This document shows, piece by piece, positions 7,157 through 40,334 of a stretch of 64,000 nt of DNA. A program made the translations under genes and the position numbers. The notes beneath the pieces are model-generated. The model saw only the letters and a list, made by a program, of their open reading frames with translations, had not been told where the DNA came from and searched no databases. This DNA comes from a virus. Where the stretch lies: positions 62,001-126,000 of IMG/VR virus record IMGVR_UViG_3300023274_000001, one strand, 5' to 3'. The first letter of the stretch is position 1; the number at the start of each line of letters is the position of its first letter.

Positions 7157-7319
7157 CCCGCTGTCGACAGCCTTCGAAGGTACGAAGGTTCTCCCACGAT
7201 GTCCCAGTTTGACTGGTGGTCTGTGCGGTCAACTTGACATGCCACCAACAAGAGCAGCCCGAGTTGCAGGGTTTATTACCAATAAGTCCGAATTAATACC
7301 CTCAGTGGGTATGGCTCGC

Positions 7320-7606
7320 CTGACCTGCGGTTCTATTTGGTTCGGGGACCGAATCGAACTTGGAAGTTGGAGGGTCACCCGAATCTGCCAGGGGGTGCGC
7401 ACTTATGTGTCGATGTATGCGCAGGTCAAAGGGTGTGACGGGCGCAGGGCAAGCAGGGGTTGCGATGTCAACATTGAACCCTGGCAGCCAGGTAACAGGG
7501 AGGGGTATGCAGTGCCCGATTCGTACCGATTCATGGTGATTTTCTTTGGCTGCCAGTTCTCGGAAAAACGAGAGTATTGAACCCCTACTTGCGCCCTGAC
7601 CTGCGG
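7320..7606. repeat. TGACCTGC repeats, left group (three copies)
   Basis: TGACCTGCGG at 7321-7330 and 7597-7606 on the plus strand and CGCAGGTCA at 7420-7428 (inverted). The same element occurs six times at 36.6-37.2 kb, upstream of the other rightward gene cluster. Confidence 0.65.
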
Positions 7607-28069: not shown

Positions 28070-28647
28070 CAGTCGAACTCCTCCATCACGGGCTCCAGCT
28101 CTACCGGCCCGGTGCTGCCGCCACCCACCTTGACGATCGCGGCCGAGTTGCGGGCAATGGCGTCGGCGGCCATGGCGGGAAAGACTTCGCCCCACATCTG
28201 CTCGACCGCCTCCCTCGACTCCTCGGGCAGTATGTCGACGACCTTCTCCAGCATGCCGACCCGGATGGCGTCGATGGCCGTGGTGACGAGCTGGGTCTGC
28301 GCCTGGGTGAGGCGGATCTGCTCGTCGCGCAGGCGGTCCTTCTTCAGGTCCATCAGCTCGGTGATCTCACGGACCGTCTCGATGAGGTTCTTCGCGTTGC
28401 GGCCCTGGGTCAGGAGGTCGCCGTCCATCACCTGCTGCCACAAGGCGCCCAGGATCCGTTCCAGGCGGGCGAGCTGAAGCATGCGCATCTGCACGATGGA
28501 CATCGACGTCGCCTGGTCTTCCAGGTACGTGTTCATCCGCTCGTGGACGGCCTCGATTTCCATCCCGGTACGGGCGGCGATCTGCGCAAGCGTCATGCCC
28601 TGCGCGGCGTAGTCCACCATCACCTGGGCGAGCGAGTCGTGTGCCAT
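28069..28647 (-). CDS. HTH and coiled-coil protein, candidate terminase small subunit
   Basis: 192 residues. N-terminal HTH (DYAAQGMTLAQIAARTGMEI, then AVHERMNTYLED), a central helical oligomerisation part (LQLARLERILGALWQQVMDG, RLRDEQIRLTQAQTQLV) and an acidic C-terminal tail ending in EEFD. This order (DNA binding, helical core, acidic tail for the large subunit) is that of small terminases, and no other candidate is closer to terL. It is 4 kb upstream on the same strand. The call is inference from architecture. Confidence 0.5.
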   Translation of the reverse strand: MAHDSLAQVMVDYAAQGMTLAQIAARTGMEIEAVHERMNTYLEDQATSMSIVQMRMLQLARLERILGALWQQVMDGDLLTQGRNAKNLIETVREITELMDLKKDRLRDEQIRLTQAQTQLVTTAIDAIRVGMLEKVVDILPEESREAVEQMWGEVFPAMAADAIARNSAAIVKVGGGSTGPVELEPVMEEFD

Positions 28648-35590: not shown

Positions 35591-35639
35591 AGGCCAGAAT
35601 GCTCTGACGGATGCATGGTCCTAACCTGGGACCCAAATT

Positions 35640-36490
35640 CAAATTCAATTCCGCATTTGGTTTTCTACCGTGAGAGAATTTCGACTGAATTTCCCGCGAA
35701 TTTTCCCGCAGGTTTTCTCGCACCCGCTCCGCTCGCACTCCCGCTCACATTCCCTTGCATATCCATGTGCATTCATTGTGCATACGTGTGTGCATTGACG
35801 TGAGATATAGAGCTAGTGAATAGAGCGTAGATATCCCTGCATTAGCTAGCTGTTGATTCCCCTGCATTCCATCCCTTCCATTGCTGCGCATTCCCCCTGC
35901 ATTCCATCTGTTGCATTCCCCTGCACATTCCGAGTGTGTGTGATGAGAGACAGCAGATATCGAGACTCCGAATAGCCTCCCGCTTTCCCTCGCTTTCCCT
36001 TTCCTCTCACCTCCCGCTTTCCTCTCACTGCATAGGTTCATGTGTATGTGTGTATTGGGTGTGAGCAGTACAGACGTGAATGCGAAATAGCGATATCGAG
36101 ATACCCGCGCATTCCCTTTCCGAGTGCTCCCGCATTCCCCCTGAATTCCCGCGCGCTCCCGCTCCCGCTCACGTGCTCCCACCTGCACGCATACACACAT
36201 GATCATGCGCACCCTGCATACCGAGTGATCACCCGCTCACGTGCTCCCGCATTGCGTGCACTCCGGCACCGTGCGCCGTTCCCGCTCATGTGCTCCCGAG
36301 TGGCCAGGCAAGCGCGCTCACGCGCGAACGCGCATCGCGTCGCGCCCCCGCGCGCGCCGCTGCACGCGCGACCCCTCCGGCATGCTCCCGCTCCGTTCGC
36401 TCACATGTGTACTCACGTGCTCATCTGTGCTGATCAGTCCCCCTCGCTTCACATTCCCTCCCATCCCTCCCCTTCCCCTTCAAATCAGAC
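35640..36490. repeat. Pyrimidine-rich repeat block
   Basis: The plus strand is dominated by C and T, with many copies of GCATTCC (for example around 35870-35935 and 36105-36140) and CTCCCGC (for example 35737, 35978, 36124, 36154, 36240, 36380). Reading frames through it give RERERER-like low-complexity products and are not taken as genes. Confidence 0.65.
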
Positions 36491-36874
36491 ATAGCTACAC
36501 ACACTGACCCTGCAATGTGGGAGCGCAACGACGTGCATGCACTCCGGGAGTCCTCACGTTTCCGCAGCTCAGGAGCATGATCACAGCAAACTCCGACATA
36601 CGGGACAACGCTGTGACCTGCGGTTTCAACAGTTCGTTGTACCGGTTTCGAGCGCGAGAAAGTGGAGCCATCCTGCCCAAATAAGTAACTAAGAGTGGTC
36701 TTCCCTCACTTGCTTCTCACTCTATGTATATGCATTGCAGGTCGCAGCGCTGACGTGCGCGTACGTGTATGAACCGGACATGTGGGAGTTATGAGCACAC
36801 ATGCCGCTGCCTTCCTCACGCTCGAAACCCTCCCCTCCCTGCCTGTCTCGCGTAGCTATGTCCGAGTTTGTACA

Positions 36875-36890
36875 TGTGACCTGCGTCACA
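36875..36890. promoter_or_regulatory. Crp-type palindromic box 1
   Basis: TGTGACCTGCGTCACA is a perfect dyad of TGTGAC and GTCACA around CTGC. It fits the classical CRP box TGTGA-N6-TCACA and also GTG-N6-GNCAC, the form reported for Streptomyces Crp. Confidence 0.6.
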
Positions 36891-37119
36891 CTTTTATCGA
36901 TGCTTGCTACACCTACCGATTCGCTCCCTCGTTTGCTCACCGCAAATTCTTGACCCATCTGTCGTACATGTCCGTTTCGTGTCGTGAAGTCCGGTAGGTT
37001 CTCCATGCCTCTGACCTGCACAAACAGAAAGTCTCCCGACGTTTCCGCAGGTACAAGAGCTGACAGAACCTTTTTTGAGAAAAATCTTGAACTCCTCGTT
37101 TTCGCAGGTCAGAGCCCAT

Positions 37120-37135
37120 TGTGACCTGCGTCACA
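37120..37135. promoter_or_regulatory. Crp-type palindromic box 2
   Basis: Second identical 16-base dyad TGTGACCTGCGTCACA, 245 bp from the first. It overlaps one of the TGACCTGC repeats. Confidence 0.6.
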
Positions 37136-37306
37136 CACATTCGGTCCTGAAGTCCGGTAGCGCTCTGACCTGCACGTTTACTGTTCACCTGACACGTCGT
37201 CAGCAACCGCACACTTGCAATGGCAGCCATGTTTCTGGTCTAGTTCTGGTTGTCGCCACGACGCGGCGCCCGCTCCGGCGGGACGCGGCGCGGGGCGAGT
37301 GCAAGC

Positions 37307-37343
37307 GTCCGGGTTCTACCCCCGGACACACCCGCCCGGGTGT
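37307..37343. other. Tandem small hairpins
   Basis: GTCCGGG (37307-37313) pairs with CCCGGAC (37321-37327), and directly after it ACACCCG and CGGGTGT form a second dyad (37328-37343). They lie in the right part of the non-coding region. Confidence 0.4.
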
Positions 37344-38292
37344 TCCTTCACATCACGTGAGGGGTGACCGGGAAGGGCTCACACGAACTCTGTGACGCAT
37401 GCGGTTCGCCGTAGCGACGTCGGGAGGGGAAACGGGAGGCACGATCCCCGGGTGAGGCGGACGGGAGCGAAACGCGCTAGCCGTAATGGCGCGGGATGCA
37501 CTCGAATGCGGTTCCTTGAGATTTTCGGAGCCCTCTCGTACACGATCCCCGGTAACCCGGGAGTACGGGAGCGGCGCAAACGGCAAGCCACGCGGTCCCC
37601 TAGGGGGCGCCGGAAAGCGTGGCCACTCGAACCGGTGGGAGGGGTCACCCTTTTGCCAGTCGGGAATACGGCGCACGGAGTACGTGACCACTTGCCGGAA
37701 TGCCTTACAGATCACAAGCGACGTGATCAGGGAATCCGGGAATGTCACAGGAAACGTGTTAAAGCGTTAGTCCGGTTCCCGCGAGTTGCGGCGCACGCAA
37801 GTACGGCCCTCTAGTCCGGGAGGTCAACCACAAGCCACGTGGGGAAACCGGGGGAATGGTGGGGAAAGCGTGTCGAAATAGTCAGTCCGCAGCAAAACCC
37901 GTTTCACCACTGGTTCGAGCCAAACGCACTATGCGGGTACGGCATAGATGATCACGCACTCTCCCGGGAGGGGTTCCGGGGGTGACGTGCGACGGTACGG
38001 CGGGATACCAGGGGTGTCGGAACCCCTGCCCGTGACGGACGGGAGCGCTTAGCGCTTCCGTCCCCCGGGGGATTCGGACGCGACACGTTGCGACGCGCCG
38101 GTTTCCACACGGAAATACGGGACGCGCTCCGATGTGGCGCCGTTTCCCCCGGGACGCATCACGTGCTGAGAGCACGAACGGACAACATGGTTTCGGTCCG
38201 GTAGGCAGGGAGGCTAGAACTCCCGTGACGCTACGACGGGGAAACTCTGTCCGTTCCTCCCTCCGCACGGAGGTTCGGGAAGGATTCCGGCA

Positions 38293-38472
38293 ATGGTGAT
38301 CAGGCTTGACAACGGCGGAACGGTGACGGTCTCGGAAAGCGGGATCACGTACCGTCGGGGGCGCGAGATTCAGTGGCGCCCCCTCCCCGGAACGTACAGC
38401 GAATCGGCCGAATGGCTGGACACGTTGGCGAACGGGAATGCGGGAGTTCTGTTCACGTCGCGTAAGGCGTGA
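38293..38472 (+). CDS. Hypothetical protein, 59 aa
   Basis: First gene of the right arm. ATG with GGGAAGGATTCCGGCA, preceded by a small CCTCCG-CA-CGGAGG hairpin (38260-38273). Short beta-rich start (VIRLDNGGTVTVSESGITY) and helical end. Its stop is 60 bases before the next gene. Not recognised. Confidence 0.6.
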   Translation: MVIRLDNGGTVTVSESGITYRRGREIQWRPLPGTYSESAEWLDTLANGNAGVLFTSRKA

Positions 38473-38531: not shown

Positions 38532-40334
38532 ATGAAGGTTGCGGGCAAGGTGTTGGCGGTTTCGGGCGACGGTTTCGCTCGGATGTACGGGCAGGGTGAA
38601 CGGGGCGCGGGACACGCGGTGTTCATTCCGGCCGGTTGTCAGGGTGACCCGTTGGGCGGGAGCGGCGCGCGAATCGTCCGGGCATGCGGGAGCACGCTCC
38701 CGACGGAAAAGGCGGCCGAGAAATTCCAGGGTGACAAGCGGTGCCCGAAGTGTGTCGAGTGGCTGGCCACGACGGACGGGACGGCTGCGCTCGAATCGGC
38801 CCGTGCGGAGCGTCACGCGTGGGAGTTCGGCGCCGATGACATCGCGGAACTGTTCAGCGTGGCGGACGTGGTGAACGGGACGGACGCCCGGGAGGACTCC
38901 GCCCCGGTTGCGGACATGGCCCCGGGTGCGGCGCGTGACGCTGCGGTGCGGGAGATCTGGACCGGCGGGAGCGACCCCGACCCGGTGGCCACGCGTAAGG
39001 CGGCGGTCGCTCGGGAGCGTAAGCGGCTGGCAGATCAGACGGAAAAGCGGGAGGCCGCTAAGCGGGAGGACTCCGCCCCGGTTGACCCCCCGGCGGACGG
39101 GAGCGGCGCGGAGATCATCGCGTCAACGGGTAAGACGCTCGCACAGATGGTCGCCGAAACGGCCACGTTCTACGCGAACGGCGGTGCGGTCTCCCCGGAG
39201 ATTGCGGCACTCCCGGCGCCCGGAACGGTGAGCCTGGCAAGCGGGACGGTTTCCGGGAGTGCGGCCGAAATTCTGGTCTGCACGTTCAAGGGTGAGGTTT
39301 CGACCGTCAACCCGGAGCGGACGCACGGGAAGTGCCCCGACTGCACCACGTACATTCCCCTTCTGCCCGGGGGCGCGGGAGGCAAGGAATCCGGCCCGAA
39401 GGTTTCCAAGATCAAGTGCGACGGGACCGGTTCGGCTCCGACGTCCGGGACCCTGGTTCTCCGCGACGATCACAGCGTGAGCGTGGCGGACGACTACGAC
39501 GGTAAGACGTCGGCCCCCTGCCCGGACTGCGGGCGCGTGATCGCGGTCTCTCGTGACCGGAACATGCGCAAGCACAACGGCTTGGAAGTGCGGGAGGTTG
39601 CCGAGTCGGCGGACGTCGACAAGATCGGCAAGCACAACGTGGGCGGGGTCGCGACTCCGGCCGGTAAGGGCCTGTCGTCCAAGTCGATTGAGACCGTGGA
39701 ACACGGGAGCGTGCCCGGTGACCCTGCCTCCGCTGACAAGCGGCGTGCGGCGGAGATCGAAGAGCGGGGCGCGGACGCGCGGGAGTTCAAGGGCGGTGCG
39801 GACGTCGGGGCGACGGTTGCCAAGGGTGCGCGACTGGCACTGTCCCGGGGTCACGGTTCGGTGGACGGGAGCGCGACGACCGGGAGTCAGAACATGGCGC
39901 CCGTGCAGCCCAAGGGGTGGGTAGGGGTCGCCGGTACGGGATCGCTTCCGGCCATGGTGCGCCCCGGGATTGACCCGGAAGTGACCGGGGACATCTGCCC
40001 CCTGCCGAAGTGCGGCGGACAGCGTAAGGACGTCGCACACAAGGGCAAGTCGTCGGGGTGGCGTCGGCGTCACTCCTCGCAGATCGGCGCCTATCTGGCC
40101 GGGCGCAAGGAAGAGCGGGACGCCAAGCGCGCGGCGCAGATCGAAAGCGGGGAGATCGTTCCCGCCTCGGTCAAGCGGGAGGCCCGTAAGGCGGCGTCGG
40201 TCGGATCGTTCAGTGAGGGCAACGTGAACGGGACCGTGACGCACGCGCCCCGCCCGGAGTTCGCCCCGAAGGGGACGCGCAAGCCTGCCCCGAACGGCAA
40301 CAAGCACACCCGCCGGAGCGGTCGCGCGGAGTAG
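38532..40334 (+). CDS. Large multi-CxxC protein, 600 aa
   Basis: ATG with GGGAAGATC leader. The largest right-arm gene. At least four Cys clusters are spread along it: RACGST...KRCPKCVEW near 55-75, VCTFKG...GKCPDCTTY near 255-280, APCPDCGRVIAV near 335, and ICPLPKCGGQRKDVAHKGKS near 500. Between them are Ala/Glu/Lys-rich, low-complexity stretches, and the C-terminus is very basic (KPAPNGNKHTRRSGR). This suggests several zinc-ribbons strung on flexible linkers, possibly a nucleic-acid-binding protein made early. No family recognised; a start 21 codons upstream is possible but lacks a ribosome site. Confidence 0.8.
   Translation: MKVAGKVLAVSGDGFARMYGQGERGAGHAVFIPAGCQGDPLGGSGARIVRACGSTLPTEKAAEKFQGDKRCPKCVEWLATTDGTAALESARAERHAWEFGADDIAELFSVADVVNGTDAREDSAPVADMAPGAARDAAVREIWTGGSDPDPVATRKAAVARERKRLADQTEKREAAKREDSAPVDPPADGSGAEIIASTGKTLAQMVAETATFYANGGAVSPEIAALPAPGTVSLASGTVSGSAAEILVCTFKGEVSTVNPERTHGKCPDCTTYIPLLPGGAGGKESGPKVSKIKCDGTGSAPTSGTLVLRDDHSVSVADDYDGKTSAPCPDCGRVIAVSRDRNMRKHNGLEVREVAESADVDKIGKHNVGGVATPAGKGLSSKSIETVEHGSVPGDPASADKRRAAEIEERGADAREFKGGADVGATVAKGARLALSRGHGSVDGSATTGSQNMAPVQPKGWVGVAGTGSLPAMVRPGIDPEVTGDICPLPKCGGQRKDVAHKGKSSGWRRRHSSQIGAYLAGRKEERDAKRAAQIESGEIVPASVKREARKAASVGSFSEGNVNGTVTHAPRPEFAPKGTRKPAPNGNKHTRRSGRAE

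Follow-up and report, generated by a model that had tools for sequence, protein, structure and literature searches.

What recognises a 16-base palindrome that is exactly repeated in the non-coding DNA of a phage? The sequence, TGTGACCTGCGTCACA, occurs at positions 36875..36890 (dyad 1) and 37120..37135 (dyad 2) of a stretch of 64,000 nucleotides from IMG/VR virus record IMGVR_UViG_3300023274_000001, hereafter the window. An initial annotation had read the two copies as Crp-type boxes and proposed that the phage may either use the Crp of its host to sense growth state or carry a Crp-like regulator of its own. Here we place both dyads relative to the physical end of the phage genome, follow them through related genomes and weigh the proteins that might bind them.

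Position of the dyads at the genome end

The window comes from a circularly permuted contig of a cluster-BM-type Streptomyces phage with Frankenweenie, Satis and Kela as relatives. Seven Streptomyces phages were matched by BLAST, all belonging to the Satis/JustBecause/Kela/Frankenweenie group. This group is known as cluster BM, whose members have prolate heads, genomes of 184-200 kb and direct terminal repeats of 1,038-1,049 bp, and the genome ends of Satis and JustBecause were defined by read build-up (PMC6687918, PMC10652959). By comparing both ends of the relatives' records with the window, we located the direct terminal repeat at 35624..36661. It is non-coding and 1,038 bp long, matching the identical repeats of 1,038-1,049 bp at the relatives' ends, and it is present as a single copy because the contig is circularly permuted. 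The left physical end of the relatives corresponds to 36661/36662 (minus strand) and the right end to 35624.

The left-end cut site block (36644..36662) consists of GGTTTCGAGCGCGAGAAA followed, across the cut between 36661 and 36662, by a G; in the aligned relatives it reads GGTTTCGAGCGYGAGAAA followed by the same G. An inverted copy of this block, 89% complementary and 148 nt apart, lies in unique DNA at 36811..36829 and is kept in 12 of 12 aligned ends. Hairpin ends have been proposed for T7 concatemer processing, and the cut block with its inverted copy is reminiscent of them.

Both dyads are located in the unique right-end DNA of the virion genome, beyond the left-end cut and preceding the first right-arm genes, with dyad 1 lying 214 bp and dyad 2 459 bp outside the terminal repeat. 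The coordinates confirm the exact repetition that had been reported, 245 bp from start to start and wholly non-coding, as are the surroundings in annotated relatives. Each box also fits both of the patterns assigned to it, TGTGA-N6-TCACA and GTG-N6-GNCAC. A first-order Markov model predicts 0.03 occurrences of TGTGA-N6-TCACA in the window, 0.1 in the genome and 0.003 in the 2.7-kb terminal non-coding stretch, where two are found, in agreement with the earlier judgement that chance is an improbable source. No third copy of TGTGACCTGCGTCACA was detected in the window with up to 3 mismatches, nor a further TGTGA-N6-TCACA site with up to 1 mismatch, and the whole 188,697-b record contains no TGTGA-N6-TCACA beyond the two dyads.

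Several other features were observed in this region. GC skew shifts from ~0 to +0.13 across 35624-38292, although the flanking genes on both sides share one direction, and this interval is thus a possible replication origin or terminus. An odd palindrome, ATGGCAGCCAT, preceded by GCA, occupies 37220-37230 and is kept in 11 of 12 genome ends. Additionally, a GC-rich block at 37254-37297 contains the direct repeat GACGCGGCGC, could fold into a long hairpin and is nearly invariant in most relatives and in one ~250-kb giant. Scans of the window for tRNAs and Rfam families gave no matches.

Two site classes around the cut

Both dyads contain TGACCTGC, and this shorter sequence forms an array around the cut, with 6 copies in 560 bp (36614-37173). 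The window as a whole has 15 copies, compared with a mean of 2.5 and a maximum of 8 in shuffled sequence. We refer to the copies outside the dyads as class I elements. One of them, at 36614..36621 (+), is part of the terminal repeat, stands 47 bp away from the left-end cut and takes the same place in all aligned relatives. Three more are found at 37012..37019 (+), 37104..37111 (−) and 37166..37173 (+), within an array that is conserved in relatives. A decayed element at 37048..37055 (−), GTACCTGC, aligns with an intact TGACCTGC in the Satis group and in the ~250-kb relatives. Beside the −47 element, an alignment of 12 genome ends revealed a conserved block, CCGACATACGGGACA (36593..36607), which reads CCGACATnyGGGACA across relatives. 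In every relative, including the ~250-kb contigs, the class I array is found at corresponding distances from the cut. A common pattern, (C/G)TC-TGACCTGC-R-N-N-W-W-Y, unites the 54 class I elements that lie outside the dyads; it is asymmetric and is used on both strands.

Since the array straddles the cut site, its probable role is in packaging or replication. Recognition elements of a terminase would be expected to flank the physical genome end at fixed positions and to be limited to the packaging site. The class I elements do hold such fixed positions, but 2-3 more of them lie in a conserved internal non-coding stretch. In the window this second cluster (7321..7604) has TGACCTGC at 7321 (+), 7421 (−) and 7597 (+). 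It falls within ~0.8 kb of non-coding DNA that separates divergent gene blocks directly ahead of the structural genes, and it has no dyad; two of its three sites are kept in the Frankenweenie and Kela lineages and they are degraded in Satis. Nearby, at 7296-7312, we noted a perfect inverted repeat, ATACCC-N5-GGGTAT, beside a fully conserved AATTCGGACTTAT block. This repeat is present with a variable spacer in 4 of 4 relatives aligned and looks like another operator.

The CTC-TGACCTGC-R array is most likely bound by a phage protein, perhaps a small-terminase-like one. A candidate for both roles is the homologue of Frankenweenie gp18 (28072..28647, −), in which an N-terminal HTH is combined with a helical domain. 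It is 79-99% identical in 10 of 10 genomes, it has weak PHROG matches to terminase small subunit, and Frankenweenie gp18 itself is annotated as a 'DNA binding protein'; confidence in the homologue's structure model is low (mean pLDDT 55). The packaging regions lambda cosB and SPP1 pac likewise contain repeated short elements, which bind terminase, at set distances from a genome-end cut. The class I array differs from these in that terminase binding is only putative here and in that its elements recur at the internal locus 7321-7604. To our knowledge, the class I sequence is unlike known pac or cos elements.

We compared the dyads across ten related genomes totalling 1.92 Mb, comprising cluster-BM phages and further IMG/VR genomes. 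Among the latter are two ~250-kb virus contigs, L114 and L115 (IMGVR_UViG_3300049141_000098 and IMGVR_UViG_3300049144_000095), distant relatives that share the terminal array. Their gp365 homologue is only 35-37% identical, and as judged from sequence they extend this phage group to larger genomes. The ten genomes hold 16 TGTGA-N6-TCACA sites, against ~1 expected in total. Each genome has 1-2 of these, all inside the terminal array and none elsewhere in the 1.92 Mb, and a reversed control pattern had no match in the same genomes. Thus the box, which the initial annotation had suggested looking for in related phages, is kept in all ten and at this spot only.

The way in which the dyads vary separates them from the class I elements. 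Dyad 1 is orthologous in the window, Frankenweenie and Satis lineages, is carried as TGTGAC[CT]TGGGTCACA by both ~250-kb giants and is cleanly deleted (22 nt) in the Kela lineage. All lineages except the giants have dyad 2, in the form TGTGACCTGCGTCACA, TGTGATCTGCGTCACA, TGTGAGCTGCGTCACA or TGTGAGCTGCATCACA, with both half-sites intact. Satis has both dyads, at 185.2-185.4 kb of its record, and JustBecause has one, at ~182.8 kb. Approximately 5 independent changes have occurred within the dyads; the 6 centre columns account for all of them and the 10 half-site columns are untouched (crude P 0.007), while the aligned DNA around them is 80-90% identical in closer relatives and 42-51% identical in Satis-type and giant relatives. 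The Kela-group change to TGAGCTGC breaks the TGACCTGC core and retains TGTGA/TCACA. Because this form loses the core yet keeps its half-sites, and because the W and Y of class I positions 13 and 14 are absent from the dyads, the dyad represents a site type apart from class I. The half-sites are invariant and the centre variable even in the ~250-kb relatives, indicating that selection acts on the Crp-type dyad as such and that it is no by-product of the class I array. We therefore rejected the idea that the dyads are mere members of the TGACCTGC array with an accidental likeness to Crp sites, since TGTGA/TCACA outlives TGACCTGC and the class I flanks are missing.

Candidate binders of the dyads

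The reported consensus for S. coelicolor Crp is GTG(N)6GNCAC (PMC10033298), and in the nucleoid of this species Crp is one of the most abundant DNA-binding proteins (PMC3784963). This consensus is matched by both window boxes and by most of their orthologues; box 2 of Kela and JustBecause, TGTGAGCTGCATCACA, does not fit it on either strand. Host Crp was read from one Streptomyces and one Kitasatospora genome, taken as stand-ins for the phage's own host. Streptomyces Crp matches the M. tuberculosis CRP structures 3I54 and 3D0S, with an identical VGASRETVNKALADFA segment and the same recognition helix. TGTGA-N6-TCACA is common to the phage dyads and to the actinobacterial CRP/GlxR operators, namely those of M. 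tuberculosis CRP, C. glutamicum GlxR and S. coelicolor Crp.

Host chromosomes carry the same site. Among the matches listed for the exact 16-mer in genome contigs, 23 of 80 loci are from Streptomyces and one is from Kitasatospora. Fourteen Streptomyces/Kitasatospora genomes contained 94 dyads compared with 5 occurrences of the reversed control (~19 times), a figure in which 14 of the 94 are expected from the selection of these genomes for carrying the 16-mer. The exact 16-mer is found at several unrelated host loci, some of them upstream of secreted-protein genes, including one gene that by our own reading of its sequence is secreted-metalloprotease-like.

Thus the Crp reading stands in part. 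The conserved Crp-type dyad, the host recognition helix and the host enrichment speak for it, and on sequence grounds host Crp is the likeliest candidate binder. The proposed phage-borne Crp-like regulator is unlikely, given that the cNMP-binding domain PF00027 was not found in eight phages (the window's genome and seven relatives) and the Crp-type HTH PF13545 was not found in the window's genome. Additionally, the boxes turn out to be part of a larger conserved terminal region that includes a second motif class and the packaging cut site. On balance, we predict that the two boxes are operator sites for host Crp in a terminal control region of the phage. No mention of Crp sites in these phages came up in a search of open-licence papers.

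The arrangement of the dyads also allows for a packaging or replication complex, in which they would be architectural or recognition sites bound, together with the TGACCTGC array, by a protein of the phage (its terminase small subunit, its replication initiator or one of its regulators) and would resemble Crp sites by coincidence. The dyads stand inside an array whose positions relative to the cut are fixed in all relatives, at 214 and 459 bp from it; they share TGACCTGC with that array in most relatives, conservation extends to the cut-site block with its inverted copy, and the HTH protein with weak terminase-small-subunit matches is present in 10 of 10 genomes. However, what the dyads tolerate is loss of the TGACCTGC core and not of TGTGA/TCACA, and they do not have the class I flanks. 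The Kela group lacks dyad 1 and the giants lack dyad 2, whereas the −47 element is invariant, and the same 16-mer is present on host chromosomes. We regard this alternative as a real but distinctly less probable one. A dedicated phage regulator of the GntR/UTRA type, the homologue of Frankenweenie gp109, appears improbable as the protein for which the dyads are operators. GntR-type regulators do bind palindromes as dimers, and this one is kept in 9 of 10 genomes, giants included, the tenth being a 102-kb fragment. The site core of the HutC subfamily, GT-N-TA-N-AC, is nevertheless absent from the dyad, and the dyad is absent both near the regulator's gene and elsewhere in the genome.

The dyads could also act in RNA, as hairpins or weak terminators. 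As RNA, a dyad would form a 6-bp stem with a 4-nt loop (−6.5 kcal/mol), and a terminator scan flagged box 1, which is followed by a T-rich stretch. Such a tail is found at box 1 only, terminator-like sites are no commoner than in shuffled sequence, and the Kela form is unpaired at positions 6 and 11. Because pairing is lost there, the half-site sequence and not the stem is the conserved element, and we consider a role as RNA highly improbable. An intrinsic terminator was rejected as well, with a scan no better than shuffles and a stem that is not conserved in the Kela form. The BldD box, nTnACnCWGnGTnAn, was also rejected as a description of the dyads, since its AC-to-GT spacing is 5 and that of the dyads is 4.

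A predicted role for host Crp in infection

The genes nearest to the dyads on the right arm are a 59-aa homologue of Frankenweenie gp366 (38293..38472, +) and a homologue of gp365 (38532..40334, +). Nearly every Frankenweenie gene between ~146 and 200 kb (about 120, most of them small hypotheticals) is oriented away from the dyad end. By analogy with other large phages, the ~54-kb right arm, with its small genes, is likely to be an early region. Phage promoters under host CRP control have a precedent in coliphage T1, where pir, dam and recE are regulated in this way (PMC6737242). The likeness lies in a phage promoter region governed by host cAMP-CRP without a phage-borne CRP. T1 differs in that its control is experimental while ours is predicted; additionally, T1 is unrelated, and the dyads here are at a packaging end and not at a mapped promoter.

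A search of the alignment with standard and HrdB-like patterns found no sigma-70-type or HrdB-type promoter near the dyads, and the lack of a recognisable promoter is the main weakness of the transcription-control reading. Unlike CRP/GlxR operators, the phage dyads are placed in the non-coding terminus of a lytic phage, with the first right-arm start codon 1.2-1.4 kb downstream. This distance is too large for ordinary Crp activation, barring a long leader.

With host Crp as the binder, the following scheme can be proposed. The terminal control region would be the unique right-end DNA from the terminal repeat to the first right-arm gene. Abundant host Crp would bind the dyads once the genome end enters the cell and would bend the DNA there, acting beside the phage protein on the surrounding CTC-TGACCTGC-R array. 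Crp at the dyads may then tune transcription of the right arm, presumably of early genes. In this scheme we infer Crp binding, the early-gene role, and the function and binder of the array alike. More tentatively, a lytic giant phage may have built host Crp sites into its packaging and early-control terminus, so that the cAMP state of the host gates early transcription or genome processing, an arrangement kept in a group with genomes of roughly 185-260 kb.

The wider result is that two classes of site make up a conserved terminal control region around a packaging end whose position was set by experiment. Independently of Crp, the conserved TGACCTGC array at this end is a concrete candidate for the site where the DNA of a large phage whose direct terminal repeats are ~1 kb long is recognised for packaging. 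If Crp does bind, the genome end where the long right arm begins would give a strictly lytic Streptomyces phage a reading of its host's cAMP state, which would tie phage infection to Streptomyces metabolism or development in a simple way that can be tested.
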